From NCBI RefSeq assembly GCF_024832785.1, contig NZ_CP116615.1, forward strand, positions 620,001-684,000: a stretch of DNA of 64,000 nt, read 5' to 3'. The position numbers and the translations under genes are program-made. Origin of the DNA: Fontisphaera persica. Lineage in GTDB: Bacteria; Verrucomicrobiota; Verrucomicrobiia; Limisphaerales; Fontisphaeraceae. Position 1 is the stretch's first letter, and each line of letters begins with the position of its first letter. Below, piece after piece: positions 21,260-50,826 of this stretch. The notes below the pieces were generated by a model. The model saw nothing but the letters and a program-made list of their open reading frames with translations, had not been told where the DNA came from and ran no database searches.

Positions 21260-21303
21260 CCCGTGGTTAAGATCAACGTGTTGAGTGCACGCCGCAAGGA
21301 TGA

Positions 21304-21337
21304 GCTGCTGCACCTCCTCCGGAGGAGGTGCAGCAGC
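21304..21337. repeat. Perfect 34-bp palindrome in the IS leader
   Basis: GCTGCTGCACCTCCTCC at 21304-21320 is followed without spacer by its exact reverse complement at 21321-21337. It lies between the left inverted repeat and the transposase start. In RNA it would form a very stable stem, and it carries GGAGG, a perfect ribosome-binding sequence, in its 3' arm. A role in blocking read-through expression of the transposase is plausible. Confidence 0.85.
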
Positions 21338-21365
21338 GGCGCGCCCCATCTGCTATCCTCCCGGC

Positions 21366-22423
21366 GTGCACACCACCTACTTTGAATTGTACCGTATGCG
21401 CACCCACCGCCATTGGTTGCGACAAAAACTCGTCGCCTTCGCCAAAACCCACGGCATCAAAGCCGCCGTCCGCGAGTTCGGCTGTTCCCGCAACACCGTC
21501 CGTAAATGGCTCCGACGCCACGTGCCCGGCAAGCCCTCCTCCCTCCAAGAACACAGCCGCCGCCCACGACGCTCCCCCCGCCGTATCCCCTCCGGCCTCG
21601 AAGGCCAAATCGTCAAACTCCGCCACCAAACCGGCTTCGGCGCCGAACGCCTCCAGCGCGAATTCGCCCTCCCCTGCAGCCACAACGCCATCGCCCGCGT
21701 CCTCCGCCAACACCATCTCCTCCGCCCACGCAAAAGAAACCCGCCACCAAAAAACTCCTCCGCGCCCTCAAACGGAACTGGCCACTCTTCTCCCAACTCT
21801 CCGCCGATACCAAGTATTTACAGGACATTCCCCATTACTGGCCCCAAATGAACCGCCTCCACCTCCCCCGCTTCCAATACACCGTCCGCGAACCAGTCTC
21901 CGGCGCCTGCTTCACCGGCTACGCCGACGAACTCTCCAAATCCTACGCCACCCTCCTGGCCACACAACTCTCCGCCCACCTCGCCGCCCACGGCGTCAAC
22001 CTCACCACCCTGGTCTGGCAAACCGACAACGGCAGTGAATCCAAGTCAACCAACACCACCAAGGCCTCCCCGCCACCGTCCGCGCCCTCGGCTCCGACCA
22101 CCGCTTCATCCCTCCCAAACGCTACACCTGGCAAAGCGACGTCGAAACCGTCCACCGCCTGGTCGAAGACGAATTCTTCGACCGCGAAACCTTCTCCAGC
22201 CCCCAAGACTTTTGGGCCAAAATCACCACCTACTGGCTGTACTTCAACCTCGTCCGCCCCAACCGCGGCAAAGAATGGCAAAGCCCACTCCAAATCCTCA
22301 ACGCCAAGGCCCCAGCCCTCGCCGGGGCCCTAATCCACTGGCTCCCCCTCAACCTCTCCCAACCCCACCATCCCGACTTGCCTCCACCCCTCCACCGGGG
22401 TCATGATCTACCCAGCTTTCCCT
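21366..22423 (+). pseudogene. IS481-like transposase, two frameshifts
   Basis: Likely starts at GTG 21366. N-terminal helix-turn-helix (AAVREFGCSRNTVRKWLRR), then an integrase-core domain spread over three frames. Frame 1 runs to the A-run near 21737-21739; inserting one A there gives KRKPATKKLLRALKRNW in phase. Frame 2 carries YWPQMNRLHLPRFQYTVRE and the catalytic-type TDNGSE, ending near 22040; inserting one T gives GSEFQVNQHHQGLPATV. Frame 3 carries IPPKRYTWQSDVETVHRLVE with the final Glu region. So two single-base deletions break an otherwise full-length gene. No stop is seen in the last frame before the right end; it reads into host DNA to 22581. Confidence 0.85.
22397..22422 (-). repeat. 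Right terminal inverted repeat of the IS
   Basis: Reads inward on the minus strand as GGGAAAG then CTGGGTAGATCATGACCCC, pairing with the left end at 21233-21259 but lacking one A. Confidence 0.9.
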
Positions 22424-42979: not shown

Positions 42980-45900
42980 ATGATGCGTTATTTCCTCTTT
43001 TTCTTTTTCGCCTTGGCTTCGGTGGCTCAGGCGGCGTTGGTGGGGCCGAATGGGTATCAGGAGAATTTTAGCACGCAGCCTGGGGCGGGGGATTGGAGCA
43101 CCTACAGCATTGGGGGCAGTTCGACTTCCAGCGGGGTGAGCAATGATTTGGTGAATGCGGCGCAGGCGTTGAATGCGGCGGACATCAACGTGGCGTTGGG
43201 GGCCGATGGGGGCAATCCGCCGGGGGCGACGGGCAACGGGGTATGGTCGTCGAGCGGGGGGTATGTGCAGACGCGGCCGACGGGGAACAACGGGACGGTG
43301 TTGATGCTGCGGTTGCAGAATCAGAGCGGGTCGGCGGTGTCGCGGGTGAGTTTGACGTATGACTATATCAAGGCGACGGAGAGTGGGGAGCAGATACCGG
43401 GATTTTTGGTGTTGTACAGTACGAGTGGGCTGGCGGGGAATTGGGTGGTGGTGCCGGAGTTGAGTTTGGCGGGGCCGGGGCGGTTGAGTGCGAGTTGGGA
43501 GGTGAACTGGCCGGTGGGGGGTCAGTTGTATGTGATGTGGGTGGATGACAATGCGGACGGGATTACGGACGAGGGGAATCAGATAGACAACGTGGTGGTG
43601 AGTGTGGTGTCGGCGGTGCAGGTGCCGGCGGTGGTGACGCGGTCGCCGACGAACGTGGTGGTGGGGGAGTTGGGGCGGGTGGAGTTGGTGGGGGGAGCCA
43701 GTGGGAATCCGGCGCCTGGGTATCAGTGGTATCGGGAGGGGGAGGCGGTGGTGGGGGCGACGGGGGCGGTGTGGGTGGTGGAGGAGGTGCCGTTGAGCTG
43801 GAATGGGTCGCGGGTGTGGTTTGTGGCGCAGAACGTGGTGAGCAACGTGACGCAGTCGGCCACCAGTGCGGTGGCAGTGGTCACCGTGCGCGCCGATACC
43901 AATGCGCCTGTCCTGTTGGGGGCATACGCTGAAGGCCTGAATTTGGTCCAGCTCATTTTCAATGAATCCATTTCTTCCGAAACAGCAACGAATGTGGCCA
44001 ATTATGCCATTACCAGCGGTGGGGGTAACCTCGTCGTTTCCAACGCGGCGGTGGGCAGCGCCAAAACCAACATTCTCCTGACGGTCAGTCGCATGACGGA
44101 AAATGTGACCTACACAGTGCGGGTAAATAATCTGCGGGATCGTTCGCAGGCAGGCAATCTGCTGGCGGCCAACAGCACGGCCACCTTTGTTGCCGTGAGC
44201 TTCAACCAGGCGAATGTGGGCAGCACCAGCGCACTGGGCGCTTATTCCACCGTGAGCGGCGGCTACAACGTCACCGCCGGCGGGTCGGACATCAACAGCA
44301 CCAGTGACCAGTTCTTTTTTGTGTATCAGCAGCGCACGGGGGATTTTGATGTCAGCGTGCGGGTGGCCAACTTCAGCCCGTCGGATGTGTGGGCCAAGGC
44401 CGGCCTGATGGCGCGTGAAAACCTCAATGCCAACGCGGCGTTTGCCGCTTCTGTGGCCACGCCGGGGGCGGTGGGTGTTTTATTTTTGTCGCGCACCGCG
44501 GCGGGCGGTTCCGTGAGCATGTCGGGCGGGCAGCCGGTGAATCATCCCTACACCTACCTTCGCTTGAAACGCTTCGGCAGTGTGTTCACGGGATTTGTCA
44601 GCTATGACGGCCTGAACTGGGTCCAGACCGGCACGGCCACCATCGGCATGCCTTCCACGATTTATTTTGGGCTGGCCACGGCGTCCCGCAGCACCAACCG
44701 GCAGACGCAGGTTGAGTTTCGGGAGCTTGCCTCGGTGGTGAATCCGCAGGCAGCGCAGCCGCGCCTGACGCGTGAGCCGCCCGGCCCCTCGAGCCGCAAG
44801 ACACCGGTGGCCATCACGGAAATCATGTACAAACCGGGCGCCTGGGCGGGCACCAATGATTTGGAATTTGTGGAAATCTACAATTCCAATCCGTATTTCG
44901 AGGATCTCTCCAACTGGCGGCTGGCCGGGGACATTGGTTTTCGTTTTCCCACCAATTTCCTGCTGGGCGGCAATGAATACCTCGTCATTGCGAAGGACCC
45001 GGACGCCGTCCGGCACGTTTATGGCATCACGAATGTCATGGGGCCTTACGAGGGACGCCTGGCCGAATCTGGGCGTGTCCGGTTGCGCACCGAAATTGAC
45101 GCCATTGTTCTGGAAGTCAATTACCGCAGCGAAACCCCGTGGCCTGCAGGGGCGGATGGCACCGGCCATTCACTGGTGTTGGCGTGTCCCTCTTATGGTG
45201 AAGATTGGGCCGAGGCATGGGATATTAGCGCCCAGGTGGGCGGATCGCCCGGGCGCATGGACGGTTTGCGGCAAACCGCCCGGCACAATGTGGTCATTAA
45301 TGAGTTCCTGGCACACACGGATCTGCCGGCGGTGGATTTTATTGAGCTATACAATCGCAGCACACAGCCGGTGGACATTTCCGGTTGCGCTCTTTCGGAT
45401 AATCCCTCCACCAATAAATACATTTTTCCGCCCGGCACCACCCTCCCCGCGCGGGGTTTTCTGGTCTTGACCGAAACCGCCCTGGGCTTCGCCCTGGATG
45501 CTGGCGGGGAAACGATTTATTTCCGCAACGCCGAAGACAACGCGGTGTTGGACTGCGTGCGATTCAAGGGCCAGGCCAACGGGGTTTCCAGCGGGCGCTT
45601 TCCTGACGGAGCCAGTGACATCTACCCGCTGCAGGCGCAGACCCCCGGCACCAACAACAATGCCATTCGCATCCATGATCTGGTGATCAACGAGGTCATG
45701 TACAAGCCGTTGTCGGAGCTGGAGGATGACGAATACGTGGAATTGCACAACCAGGGCACAAATGCCTGGAATTTGGCTGGCTGGCGTTTGCGGGATGGCA
45801 TCGCCTATACCTTTCCCGCCAACACCGTGATCCCGGCCGGCGGTTACCTCGTGGTGGCCAAGAATCGCACGAATCTGCTTGATAAATATCCCGGGCTTAA

Positions 45901-48900
45901 CCCAGCCATCGTGCTGGGCAACTATTCCGGTTCGCTGGCCAATCGCGGCGAGCGACTGGCACTGGCGATGCCGGATCAGGTTTGGACCATCTCCACCAAT
46001 GCCCAGGGCCAGACGGTGACCAACTTCGACACCATTTATGTGGATGTGGATGAAGTCGCCTACCGCCGCGGCGGCCAGTGGGGCAAGTGGGCCAATGGCG
46101 GCGGCAGCAGTTTGGAACTTAAGGATCCTCGTGCCAATCATCGGCTGGCTGCCAACTGGGCCGATAGTGATGAAACGCAAAAAGCCCCCTGGTGTACGGT
46201 GGAGTTCACCGGCCCCATGGACCACGGCGCGCAGACCGCTTCGCATTTTGAAGTGCTGTCCCTCGAAGCGGGCGAATTTCTGGTGGATAACGTGGCCGTG
46301 CTGAACACCAGCGGCCAGAATTTGATTTCCACCGCCGACAGCAACTTTGAAACAGGGGGTCCGGGCTGGCTCATGCGCGGCAATCACGCCCGCTCCACTG
46401 TGGACACCTCGGGCGGGGAAGGCGGCGGGCGTTGCCTGCACGTGCGGGCGAGCGGGCGGGGGGACACCCTGGCCAATCGCTGCCTGGTGCCCCTCACCAC
46501 CGTGCCCAGCAGCGGCACTTTCACCCTGCGGGCCAGGGTGCGCTGGTTGTGCGGCTGGCCGGAAATGTTGGTTCGCCTGCACGGCAACTACATTGAGGCC
46601 AGTCGGCGTCTGGAAATCCCCACCAACCTGGGCACGCCGGGCGCGCGCAACAGCCGCTATGAGACGAATGCGGCTCCGGCGATTTATGAGGTGTCTTATG
46701 CGCCTGTTTTGCCGGCGGCGAACGAAGCCGTGGTGGTGACCGCGCGGGTGCATGATCCGGATGGGGTGACCAACCTGGTGTTGCGTTACCGCTTGGACAC
46801 TGCCGGCTCCTACACCTCCGTAACCATGGTTGACAATGGCACGGGTGGTGATGCGGTGGCGGGCGACGGCCTTTATTCGGCCACCATCGCGGGCCAGGCT
46901 TCCGGTGCCTTGGTGGCCTATCAAATCTCAGCCACCGACCTGCGCGGGCGTAACGCCGTCTTTCCCGCTGGGTCAGGCATCAATACGCGTGAGCATCTGG
47001 TGCGGTTTGGCGAGTTGCAGCCCGTCTCCAGTTTCGGCACGTACCGCATGTATTTCACCCAGAATGCGGTCAACTCGTGGATTAACCGGCCGGTGCTGAG
47101 CAATGAGCCAGTGGAGGGCACGATGGTTTATGGCAATTTCCGGGTCATCCACCACATCGGCGCCCGGTACGCAGGCAGTCCCTATCATCAAGGATTTAAC
47201 AGCCCGGTGGGCAACAACTGCCATTACTCGGTGGAATTGCCCGAGGATGATTTAATGCTGGGGACGGAGAACTTCAACAAGCTGCACGGCCCCGGCAATG
47301 GTTCATTCGATGACCCCACCCTGCAGCGGGAGCAGGTGGCTTATGCTGTAGCGCGGTATGTGGGGTTGCCCTGGCTTTATCGGCGCTACGTGGCCGTGTA
47401 TGTCAACGGCGTCCGCCGCGGCACCTTCATGGAAGACATGCAAACACCGAATGGCGATGTCATCGAACAATACTGGCCGGATGATCCCGACGGCCAGCTC
47501 TACAAACTCCAGCCTTGGTTTGAACAAAACGATGTCGCCTCCGGCGCCTCCTCGCCGGTGAACAACCAGTCGTGGTGCACCCTCAATGCCTATTACAGCC
47601 AGGGTCAGCATAAACTGGCGCGTTACCGGCATAATTACCTGACGCGCGCGGCCAAAGGCACCGCCAATGATTACACCAATGTCTTTCAACTGGTGGAGGC
47701 TGCTTCCCAAACCGGCTCCGCCTTCGTGTCCGCCATGGAGCCGCTGGTGGACACCGAGCAATGGCTCAAGACTTTTGCCGTCGAGCATGCGGTGGGCAAC
47801 TGGGACAGCTTCGGCAACCGCAATGCCCAAAACATGTACGGCTACAAGGGCGATGTGAACAAATGGCGGCTGATTATCTTCGACCTCAACATTGTGTTGA
47901 ACAGTCCCAACGACGGCGGCACGGAGTCCGATGCTCCGGGCGCGGCATTGTTTCAGTATAATTCCGCCGACATGAACATGCCGAAGTTTTACAATACACC
48001 GATTTATCGGCGCGCCTACTGGCGCGGTCTCAAGCAGGTTTGCCTCGGGCCGTTCAGCAACCCGCGTTTGAATGACTTTATGGATGTCCGTTATCAGGCC
48101 TTTGTGCTCAACGGCCAGACCAGCGTGCGGGCGCCCTCCGCGGTTAAAACCTTCATCAGCTCCGCCCGCGCGAGCATTCTTAATCAGATTGCGGCGGAAG
48201 ATGCCGCCTCATTCAGCGTGCAGGCCATTCCTTCCAGCCAGAACACCAACCTGCTGGTCATTCGCGGCCAGGCCCCGGTGGATATCTTTACCATCACCAT
48301 CAATGGCAAGGCCTATCCCATCAACTGGACCAGTGTGCGCGACTGGAGTGTTAATTACGTCCTCAACTCGGGCAGTAATAGCTTGCTCATCGAAGGCCGG
48401 GATGCGCAGGGGAATCCCATTCCCGGCATGGAAATCTCGCGTGCCGTGACCTTTACGGGCACCCCACCGGATCCGCAAAACACGGTGATGTTCTCCGAAA
48501 TTATGTACAACGCGGCAGTGACCAATGCGGAATACGTGGAAATTTATAATGCTTCCACCAATGTCACCTTCGACCTGGCCGGCTGGCGCGTCAATGGCTT
48601 GGGCTATGACTTCCCCTTGGGAGCCTTGCTGCTCCCACAGCAGCGGCTCATCTTGGCCAAAGACCGGGCCGCCTTCACCGCCGCCTACGGCAGCGGCATT
48701 TCAGTGTTTGACGTGTTTCCCGGGAATCTGCAGAAAGACGGCGAAACCCTGACGCTTTTCCGCCCCGGTACCAACGGCCAGGAAATTGTGGTGGACCGGG
48801 TCCGCTACGAGCCGAATTTGCCGTGGTCCTTGAAGGCGGCCGGGGGCGGGGCGGCATTGCAGTTGGTGGACGGGCGGCGGGACCACAGCCGTCCGTTGAA

Positions 48901-49528
48901 CTGGGCGGACGGGCAGGGATGGAAGTTCAAGTATTTCAGTTTGTCCAACCGGGCCACGTTGAATTGGACCAATTTATATTTTCAACTTTCCAATGCAGGA
49001 GAGGTGTGGGTGGATGATTTGCGGGTGGAGGAGGGGACCGAAGTGGGTGGAGGGACGAACTACGTGGTGAACGGGGATTTTGAGGCGCCGCTGGAGGGGA
49101 CGTGGGTGAAGGGGACGATGACCCAGCCGACGGTGCGAGATGGGAGTGTGAGCCGGAGCGGGCAGTACAGTTTGCGGCTGGTGGCGACGGGGCGGGTGAC
49201 GCAGGCGGCGCAGTCGTTGTCGCAGCCGTTGGTGTTGAAGACGGGGATGACGTACACGGTGAGTTTGTGGTATTTGCCGAGCGACAGTGTGAGCAATTTG
49301 ACGGTGTATGTGACGGCGTTTGTGACCTCGAACTTTGTGGTGCACGCTTCGATGTATGGGCGGTCGCCGGGGTTGGGGAATCCGGTGGAGGGTTTGTTGC
49401 CGGAGCTGCCGGGGGTGTATTTGAACGAGGTGCAGGCGGAGAATGGGGCTGGGGGGGGGTGGACAACTATGGGGAGCGGGAGCCGTGGGTGGAGTTGTAC
49501 AATGGGGGGAGCAATGCGGTGGATTTGA
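42980..49528 (+). CDS. Giant secreted LTD/CotH-type protein, N-terminal part up to a frameshift
   Basis: 2182 codons in the first frame; the native reading ends near codon 2160, at the G9 tract at 49451. Signal peptide MMRYFLFFFFALASVAQAA. Order: a beta-rich domain at about 20-210; an Ig-like domain at about 213-310; an SbsA-like segment to about 410; a DUF1349-like beta-sandwich (FDVSVRVANFSPSDVWAKAG) to about 590; lamin-tail domains near 606, 770 and 900 (ITEIMYKP, VINEFLAHT, VINEVMYKP); a linker; a CotH-kinase-like domain at about 1352-1710 (ENFNKLHGPG, VGNWDSFGNRNAQN, LIIFDLN); a fourth LTD near 1835; and the start of a fifth (VYLNEVQAENG). Probably cell-surface. Confidence 0.85.
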   Translation: MMRYFLFFFFALASVAQAALVGPNGYQENFSTQPGAGDWSTYSIGGSSTSSGVSNDLVNAAQALNAADINVALGADGGNPPGATGNGVWSSSGGYVQTRPTGNNGTVLMLRLQNQSGSAVSRVSLTYDYIKATESGEQIPGFLVLYSTSGLAGNWVVVPELSLAGPGRLSASWEVNWPVGGQLYVMWVDDNADGITDEGNQIDNVVVSVVSAVQVPAVVTRSPTNVVVGELGRVELVGGASGNPAPGYQWYREGEAVVGATGAVWVVEEVPLSWNGSRVWFVAQNVVSNVTQSATSAVAVVTVRADTNAPVLLGAYAEGLNLVQLIFNESISSETATNVANYAITSGGGNLVVSNAAVGSAKTNILLTVSRMTENVTYTVRVNNLRDRSQAGNLLAANSTATFVAVSFNQANVGSTSALGAYSTVSGGYNVTAGGSDINSTSDQFFFVYQQRTGDFDVSVRVANFSPSDVWAKAGLMARENLNANAAFAASVATPGAVGVLFLSRTAAGGSVSMSGGQPVNHPYTYLRLKRFGSVFTGFVSYDGLNWVQTGTATIGMPSTIYFGLATASRSTNRQTQVEFRELASVVNPQAAQPRLTREPPGPSSRKTPVAITEIMYKPGAWAGTNDLEFVEIYNSNPYFEDLSNWRLAGDIGFRFPTNFLLGGNEYLVIAKDPDAVRHVYGITNVMGPYEGRLAESGRVRLRTEIDAIVLEVNYRSETPWPAGADGTGHSLVLACPSYGEDWAEAWDISAQVGGSPGRMDGLRQTARHNVVINEFLAHTDLPAVDFIELYNRSTQPVDISGCALSDNPSTNKYIFPPGTTLPARGFLVLTETALGFALDAGGETIYFRNAEDNAVLDCVRFKGQANGVSSGRFPDGASDIYPLQAQTPGTNNNAIRIHDLVINEVMYKPLSELEDDEYVELHNQGTNAWNLAGWRLRDGIAYTFPANTVIPAGGYLVVAKNRTNLLDKYPGLNPAIVLGNYSGSLANRGERLALAMPDQVWTISTNAQGQTVTNFDTIYVDVDEVAYRRGGQWGKWANGGGSSLELKDPRANHRLAANWADSDETQKAPWCTVEFTGPMDHGAQTASHFEVLSLEAGEFLVDNVAVLNTSGQNLISTADSNFETGGPGWLMRGNHARSTVDTSGGEGGGRCLHVRASGRGDTLANRCLVPLTTVPSSGTFTLRARVRWLCGWPEMLVRLHGNYIEASRRLEIPTNLGTPGARNSRYETNAAPAIYEVSYAPVLPAANEAVVVTARVHDPDGVTNLVLRYRLDTAGSYTSVTMVDNGTGGDAVAGDGLYSATIAGQASGALVAYQISATDLRGRNAVFPAGSGINTREHLVRFGELQPVSSFGTYRMYFTQNAVNSWINRPVLSNEPVEGTMVYGNFRVIHHIGARYAGSPYHQGFNSPVGNNCHYSVELPEDDLMLGTENFNKLHGPGNGSFDDPTLQREQVAYAVARYVGLPWLYRRYVAVYVNGVRRGTFMEDMQTPNGDVIEQYWPDDPDGQLYKLQPWFEQNDVASGASSPVNNQSWCTLNAYYSQGQHKLARYRHNYLTRAAKGTANDYTNVFQLVEAASQTGSAFVSAMEPLVDTEQWLKTFAVEHAVGNWDSFGNRNAQNMYGYKGDVNKWRLIIFDLNIVLNSPNDGGTESDAPGAALFQYNSADMNMPKFYNTPIYRRAYWRGLKQVCLGPFSNPRLNDFMDVRYQAFVLNGQTSVRAPSAVKTFISSARASILNQIAAEDAASFSVQAIPSSQNTNLLVIRGQAPVDIFTITINGKAYPINWTSVRDWSVNYVLNSGSNSLLIEGRDAQGNPIPGMEISRAVTFTGTPPDPQNTVMFSEIMYNAAVTNAEYVEIYNASTNVTFDLAGWRVNGLGYDFPLGALLLPQQRLILAKDRAAFTAAYGSGISVFDVFPGNLQKDGETLTLFRPGTNGQEIVVDRVRYEPNLPWSLKAAGGGAALQLVDGRRDHSRPLNWADGQGWKFKYFSLSNRATLNWTNLYFQLSNAGEVWVDDLRVEEGTEVGGGTNYVVNGDFEAPLEGTWVKGTMTQPTVRDGSVSRSGQYSLRLVATGRVTQAAQSLSQPLVLKTGMTYTVSLWYLPSDSVSNLTVYVTAFVTSNFVVHASMYGRSPGLGNPVEGLLPELPGVYLNEVQAENGAGGGWTTMGSGSRGWSCTMGGAMRWI
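43030..43880 (+). other. Block of strongly G-ending codons inside the giant gene
   Basis: Gly is almost always GGG, Val GTG, Leu TTG, Ala GCG and Thr ACG from about 43030 to 43858, whereas the sequence after about 43880 shifts to GGC, GTC, CTG, GCC and ACC. It also contains dense G-runs (43671-43713) able in principle to form G-quadruplexes. Seen by eye, without a calculated index. Confidence 0.7.
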
Positions 49529-49790
49529 CGGGGTGGTATTTGGCGAACCAGTACACGAACCTGGGGCAGTGGGCGTTTCCGGCGGGGACGGTGTTGGGGC
49601 CTGGGGAGTATCGGGTGGTGTGGTGCGATGGGCAGGAGGGGCAGAGTGCGGGGACGAATCTGCACACGAACTTTCGGTTGAGCGGGGGGGCGGGGTCGGT
49701 GGCGCTGGTGATGCCGGTGGACGGGGGGTTGAAGGTGCTGGATTATTTGAACTACACGAATCTGGCGCCGGACCAGAGTTATGGGGATTA
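48830..49790 (+). other. Second block of G-ending codons
   Basis: Same codon style as 43030-43880, strongest between 49000 and 49780, and including the G9 tract. It ends sharply near 49790, where C-ending codons return. It covers the region between the fourth LTD domain and the end of the fifth. Confidence 0.7.
49451..49459 (+). repeat. G9 homopolymer at the frame junction
   Basis: Nine G bases after GAATGGGGCT. The first frame reads ENGAGGGWTT and runs to a stop at 49528; the -1 frame reads GVDNYGEREPWVELYN, a correct LTD continuation. G10 (or G7) would join the two frames into one open frame to 50826. Confidence 0.9.
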
Positions 49791-50826
49791 TCCCAACGGC
49801 CAGATGTTCTATCGCCAAAAATTCATGTATCCCACACCAGGTTGGGCCAACAACACCGATCTGGCGTTGCCGGTGGTGCGGATCAACGAATGGATGGCCG
49901 ACAATACCCTCGTGCTAACGCCCGACCAGCGCTATGAAGATTGGTTCGAGCTCTATAATCCCACCACCAATTTCATCAACCTCCAAGGGTTGTATTTAAG
50001 CGATAATCCCAGCAACAAGCTTCAATTCCGCATTCCCGCGGGTTATACCATTCCGCCGCGCGGCTACCTCTTGGTCTGGGCTGACAACCGGCCCGAGTTG
50101 AACAGCACGAATGAAGTGGATTTGCATGTCAACTTTGCCCTCGCGCGCCGCGGCGAGTCCATCGGCCTCTACGGGCCGGACGGCTCCGTGATTGACGAGG
50201 TGACTTTCGGGGACATGACCGGCAACGTGGTGCTGGGGCGTTATCCTGACGGCAGCTCGCTCATCACCACCTTGAGCCGGCCCACCCCGCGCGGAGCCAA
50301 TGTGGCCTCAATCACTCCGGGTAATACGCCGCCGCAACTGGCGCCTTTGCCCAACCGCAGCCTGCTGGTGGGGCAAACCTTGCAGCTCGACTTGGTGGCG
50401 ACTGACGTTGACCAGCCCCCGCAAAATCTCGCCTTTAGTTTCCTGCCGCCCACGCCGGTTTCGGTGACCTTGACCAATGGCAACCGGTTGCGCTGGACTC
50501 CCACTCTGGCCGAGGTGGGCACGCATCAAATCGTGGTGCGGGTTACGGATGACGGCACGCCACCCATGAGTGCCACCAACACCTTGCAAGTGACCGTGGG
50601 CGCGCTTCCACAGTTGCCACCGGGTGGTCTTTCCCTGGCCAACGGCCGGTTGAGCCTGACCTTTGCCACGGTGCCCGGCGTCACCTACCGCCTGCAATAC
50701 AAGCAGCAGTTGACGGATGCCGTCTGGCTGGACGTGGCGCCTCCCACCAACGCCGCAGGAGCTACGATAACCTTGCAGGACAACCTGACTGCCCCGCAGC
50801 GCTTCTATCGCCTCACGGCGGAATAA
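49459..50826 (+). CDS. Giant secreted LTD/CotH-type protein, C-terminal part in shifted frame
   Basis: 456 codons continuing the protein that begins at 42980. It holds the rest of the fifth LTD (WVELYNGGSNAVDLTGWYLA), a sixth LTD (VVRINEWMADN, WFELYNPTTNFINLQGLYLS), a cadherin/Ig-like domain (DLVATDVDQPPQNLAFSF) and a C-terminal module ending RFYRLTAE. It has no start of its own; an open frame upstream to 49102 is a Gly/Val shadow of the other frame. If the G9 tract changed length by one base the complete protein would be about 2615 residues. Confidence 0.85.
   Translation: MDNYGEREPWVELYNGGSNAVDLTGWYLANQYTNLGQWAFPAGTVLGPGEYRVVWCDGQEGQSAGTNLHTNFRLSGGAGSVALVMPVDGGLKVLDYLNYTNLAPDQSYGDYPNGQMFYRQKFMYPTPGWANNTDLALPVVRINEWMADNTLVLTPDQRYEDWFELYNPTTNFINLQGLYLSDNPSNKLQFRIPAGYTIPPRGYLLVWADNRPELNSTNEVDLHVNFALARRGESIGLYGPDGSVIDEVTFGDMTGNVVLGRYPDGSSLITTLSRPTPRGANVASITPGNTPPQLAPLPNRSLLVGQTLQLDLVATDVDQPPQNLAFSFLPPTPVSVTLTNGNRLRWTPTLAEVGTHQIVVRVTDDGTPPMSATNTLQVTVGALPQLPPGGLSLANGRLSLTFATVPGVTYRLQYKQQLTDAVWLDVAPPTNAAGATITLQDNLTAPQRFYRLTAE

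Follow-up and report, generated by a model that had tools for sequence, protein, structure and literature searches.

In the cell, the giant LTD/CotH gene of Fontisphaera persica most likely has an uninterrupted frame; the break in the assembly at a run of nine G is a probable consensus artifact, an error in the length of that single run, to which we assign a probability of roughly 0.7; real slippage is a possible alternative. That sequencing or polishing is the cause, and that the cell carries an intact gene, we infer from comparison of assembled copies. The gene lies within the window, the 64,000-nt stretch analyzed here, which corresponds to C1:620001-684000 of a single-contig genome of 4.73 Mb.

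The G9 tract and the split gene

Exactly nine G occupy positions 49451-49459 of the plus strand, about 2,160 codons into the giant LTD/CotH gene. The 5' open frame (42980..49528, plus strand; 2,182 amino acids as printed) begins at an ATG at 42980 with a signal-peptide-like sequence and ends at a premature stop codon (49526-49528) about 70 nt past the run. The 3' continuation (49461..50826, plus strand) is in a different frame. Pfam matches before the break comprise four LTD domains, a CotH domain, and a CBM_4_9 domain; after the break there are two LTD domains, an Ig-like domain whose Bacterial Ig match is just under the curated cut-off, and a C-terminal domain. The product is predicted to be a secreted multidomain LTD/CotH protein. 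The family is large, with about 50 places in the genome matching the C-terminal LTD region of this gene.

The preliminary description had located a G9 tract exactly at the frame break, with family-matching sequence in both frames, and this is borne out by the count, by the meeting of the frames at the run, and by LTD domains on both sides, with the proviso that the overlapping frame (49102-50826) matches the family only 3' of the tract. Alignment with an in-genome paralog likewise puts the indel inside the run, where the window has G9 and the paralog has G7. The same description proposed that a tenth G would restore a single frame. It would, but G10 is not the only in-frame length, as G7 is in frame too.

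Several comparisons bear on which length is the intact one. The paralog (C1:891-900 kb), with G7, is open for 2,550 codons, and the ortholog from the second genome of the genus (contig C6) is open for 2,039 codons without a long G-run. No run at this site exceeds 2 to 4 G in the same-genus ortholog or in 13 relatives from other genera, and 12 of those 13 relatives have a five-residue linker there, which is what G7 encodes; G10 gives the same frame, but with one extra glycine. Against the same-genus ortholog, dN/dS is 0.097 in the 5' part and 0.115 beyond the run, and the same purifying selection acts on both parts. The 3' part has no further stops, and an old pseudogene was rejected on these grounds. 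The lack of decay in the 3' part therefore fits either an artifact or a very recent change.

G-skewed islands shared with a paralog

Strong coding-strand G skew is confined to two islands of the gene, both with sharp boundaries; elsewhere in the gene the skew is near zero. Island 1, in an Ig-like region, spans 43021..43908 on the plus strand (skew at about 43.05-43.95 kb), and its 888 bp are 99.8% identical to C1:891829-892716 in the paralog, with no indel. Island 2 (48800..49850, plus strand) has a coding-strand GC skew of about +0.35 to +0.55, and a block of about 760 bp within it (about 49050-49812) is approximately 99% identical to the paralog at C1:897.9-898.7 kb. Between about 49058 and 49659 this block differs from the paralog by two substitutions, and its sole indel is the G9 of the window against the G7 of the paralog. 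G occupies 67-69% of third codon positions in the islands, compared with 32% in the middle of the gene. Outside the islands, the gene and its paralog are mostly unalignable as DNA.

A run of nine G is not unusual by chance in such a G-rich island. Under a first-order Markov model, the probability of a run of at least nine is about 0.30, and about two thirds of codon shuffles of the paralog's island yielded such a run. Across the genome there are 23 G-runs with a length of 9 or 10, and no run exceeds 10.

Both orthologs in the second species are about 80% identical to their F. persica counterparts over approximately 5.5-5.9 kb, whereas island 1 is 99.8% identical within F. persica, 98.6% identical between the two copies of the second species (partial overlap), and about 90% identical between species. 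Within-genome identity exceeds ortholog identity in the island segment only, so the islands have undergone concerted evolution in both species, for which gene conversion is the best explanation. Concerted evolution by gene conversion between paralogous genes is an established concept, and the present case resembles it in that, for two segments, the copies within a genome resemble each other more closely than their counterparts in the other species, whereas the remainder of the genes tracks the species. It differs from the usual case in the strong G skew of third codon positions in the homogenized segments. A G-quadruplex was considered as a cause, but the islands have no strict G4 motif. Several contigs of the second genome end within these islands.

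Frame breaks across the assembly

Frame breaks were counted in 434 kb of non-redundant F. persica sequence, chosen around G-runs and paralogs and therefore enriched for such places. The 21 strict frame switches were checked by hand in part, and at least one of them, at 799.6 kb in a MOSC-like gene outside the skewed bins, proved on inspection to be a natural gene end with an overlap and no break. Coding DNA with a G skew of at least 0.3 represents 7.4% of coding bins and holds 12 of the 21 (binomial p = 4e-9), 10 of these 12 being of the -1/+2 type. In the same-genus genome, 163 skewed bins contain no strict switch, compared with 12 in 264 skewed bins here. Such a concentration by sequence context across unrelated genes is what an artifact would produce.

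The breaks become more frequent with coding-strand run length, from 1 of 108 G6 runs to 3 of 24 G8 runs (a count made before manual checking, which showed one of the three to be a natural gene junction) and 3 of 7 G9 runs. Counting against an artifact, most G8 tracts and about half of the coding-strand G9 tracts in genes stay in frame. Natural gene ends seem to account for two further G9 runs, at 923 kb (MnmA-like) and 1927 kb (WecA-like). The long-tract breaks at 669451 (the G9 of the window), 1231572, 1955453, 1954517, and 513963 are all compatible with changes of +1 or +2, the kind that real slippage produces, although the choice of long tracts itself biases towards this reading.

At 1231572, a G9 run breaks a large beta-helix-like gene that is represented in the second species by an ortholog with one frame of 2,660 codons. 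An adjacent near-identical repeat copy has G7 where this site has G9, and at each of two nearby breaks one G has been lost (G4 versus G5). This gene carries a tandem repeat of about 2 kb, 99% identical, at C1:1227991-1232012, and the ortholog frame seems to be without the second copy. The breaks at 1955453 (G9) and 1954517 (G8) affect an autotransporter-repeat-like gene whose ortholog is open for 1,907 codons, and the break at 513963 (G8) is in a kinase-like gene.

Near-identical copies within the genome differ mainly by lost G. Two copies of a NiFe-hydrogenase, named as such from their sequence, are 94% identical and G-skewed. The first (C1:712030-714775) has intact genes for the small and large subunits, and the second (C1:1082055-1084747) is frame-broken. 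Between them lie one 24-nt difference and 18 short indels, and in each of the 18 the second copy is the one that has lost bases, in most cases at a G-run (G7 to G5, G6 to G5, G5 to G4, and G8 to G5). Eight of these losses fall within about 500 bp that contain no substitution. Mutation would not be expected to give this pattern, but it is what failed polishing of the consensus would leave in G-rich, near-duplicate sequence. Copies at 721 and 1585 kb similarly differ by three G-run indels (-2, -2, and -1 in the 721-kb copy) with no substitution in about 170 bp. In both pairs, indels far outnumber substitutions, as would be expected of an artifact. The stretch at 695.85-696.03 kb has lost single bases at five places in about 180 bp relative to an intact gene in the second species, while the rest of this 1,786-codon gene is open and 88% identical. 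At C1:2436.9-2437.7 kb, next to a long unbroken frame, codon statistics also suggest five candidate switches within about 900 bp.

Origin of the break

Since the block around the G9 tract is both near-duplicate and G-skewed in the same assembly, the break there is untrustworthy and most likely an error. We propose that gene conversion keeps the two G-skewed islands nearly identical to those of the paralog, so that long G-runs would be paired with near-duplicate sequence in which short reads may have no unique placement. Long-read homopolymer errors in the islands would then stay unpolished. This would give the indels that the assembly shows at G-runs of such islands in several genes, of which the G9 of the window is one. 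Systematic homopolymer indels with frameshifts are a known error of nanopore consensus sequences (the Homopolish paper, PMC8011154). The likeness to such long-read artifacts, seen at the level of consensus sequence, consists of homopolymer indels in coding genes, broken frames here, and intact homologs; the difference is that mainly G-runs in G-skewed, near-duplicate DNA are affected here.

Other observations also count against an artifact. Island 1 has no indel relative to its partner, and the direction of the change is the reverse of that at the short runs, where the breaks are losses of G, in that the broken copy has more G (G9) than its intact partner (G7). An undercall therefore needs a true G10, with its extra glycine; otherwise, the run was overcalled or has really expanded.

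A real slipped-strand mutation without regulatory meaning, in which G7 became G9 in this lineage and the protein was truncated, is an unlikely but credible alternative; a later conversion event with the G7 paralog as donor may repair the frame. It would account for the fact that the sole indel of a nearly identical block falls at the longest run, it agrees with the rise of breaks with run length, and the three G9 breaks are in large secreted or surface-type genes. However, it does not explain the clustered losses at short G-runs without substitutions, and the undecayed 3' part also speaks against it, as does intact mismatch repair: mutS and mutL are present and uninterrupted in both genomes, so the strain is not a simple mutator. 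Slippage and miscalling had initially been regarded as equally likely. Both are live explanations, but the equality does not hold, as the evidence clearly favors miscalling: breaks cluster in G-skewed near-duplicates at runs of every length, the same-genus genome has none in comparable DNA, and near-identical copies differ by many deletions of G and few or no substitutions.

Evolved phase variation, in which slippage at the run would toggle the C-terminal LTD domains of a surface protein, had been suggested as fitting the sequence, but it is not supported and we consider it improbable. The case is like the poly-G phase variation of surface genes in Neisseria and Campylobacter jejuni (PMC5953494, PMC8808543) in that a G9 run lies in a large secreted, surface-type gene and the frame changes at this homopolymer, and other large secreted genes also break at G9. 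Unlike in those systems, the run is not conserved, being absent from the same-genus ortholog and the 13 relatives of other genera, which speaks against a tract that evolved for contingency; the break lies deep within the gene, a long way from its start; and it is known here from one consensus sequence per species. Nor is the run longer than composition predicts; a G9 is expected where DNA is this rich in G. Breaks of the same kind occur in the kinase gene and the hydrogenase copy, and a switch some 2,160 codons into the gene would merely trim the C terminus.

Similarly doubtful is a model in which the islands are genuine recombination cassettes shared by a family of giant secreted proteins: conversion would swap them among paralogs, and slippage at their G-runs would switch off the C-terminal domains, the frame being reset later by a donor copy. 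Programmed -1 ribosomal frameshifting or transcriptional slippage on the run, yielding full-length protein, is very improbable: a -1 shift on G9 would lead into the 3' frame, but downstream RNA folding is no better than in shuffled sequences (z = +0.8), and the intact paralog and ortholog need no shift.

Implications

The preferred reading, a consensus error, carries the warning that frame breaks at G-runs in this assembly should not be taken for biology, and comparing near-duplicate copies inside the same genome offers a simple test. If the break were real, it would deprive a giant secreted protein of its C-terminal LTD domains, a loss that conversion might reverse. What is real is the link in this genus between extreme coding-strand G skew and homogenized duplicate segments. 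In the sampled part of the genome, near-identical duplicate segments are mostly strongly G-skewed on the coding strand. Elsewhere in the window, a C-rich transposase-like gene with HTH domains at its start (21285-22406) is apparently split between frames near 21850-22040.
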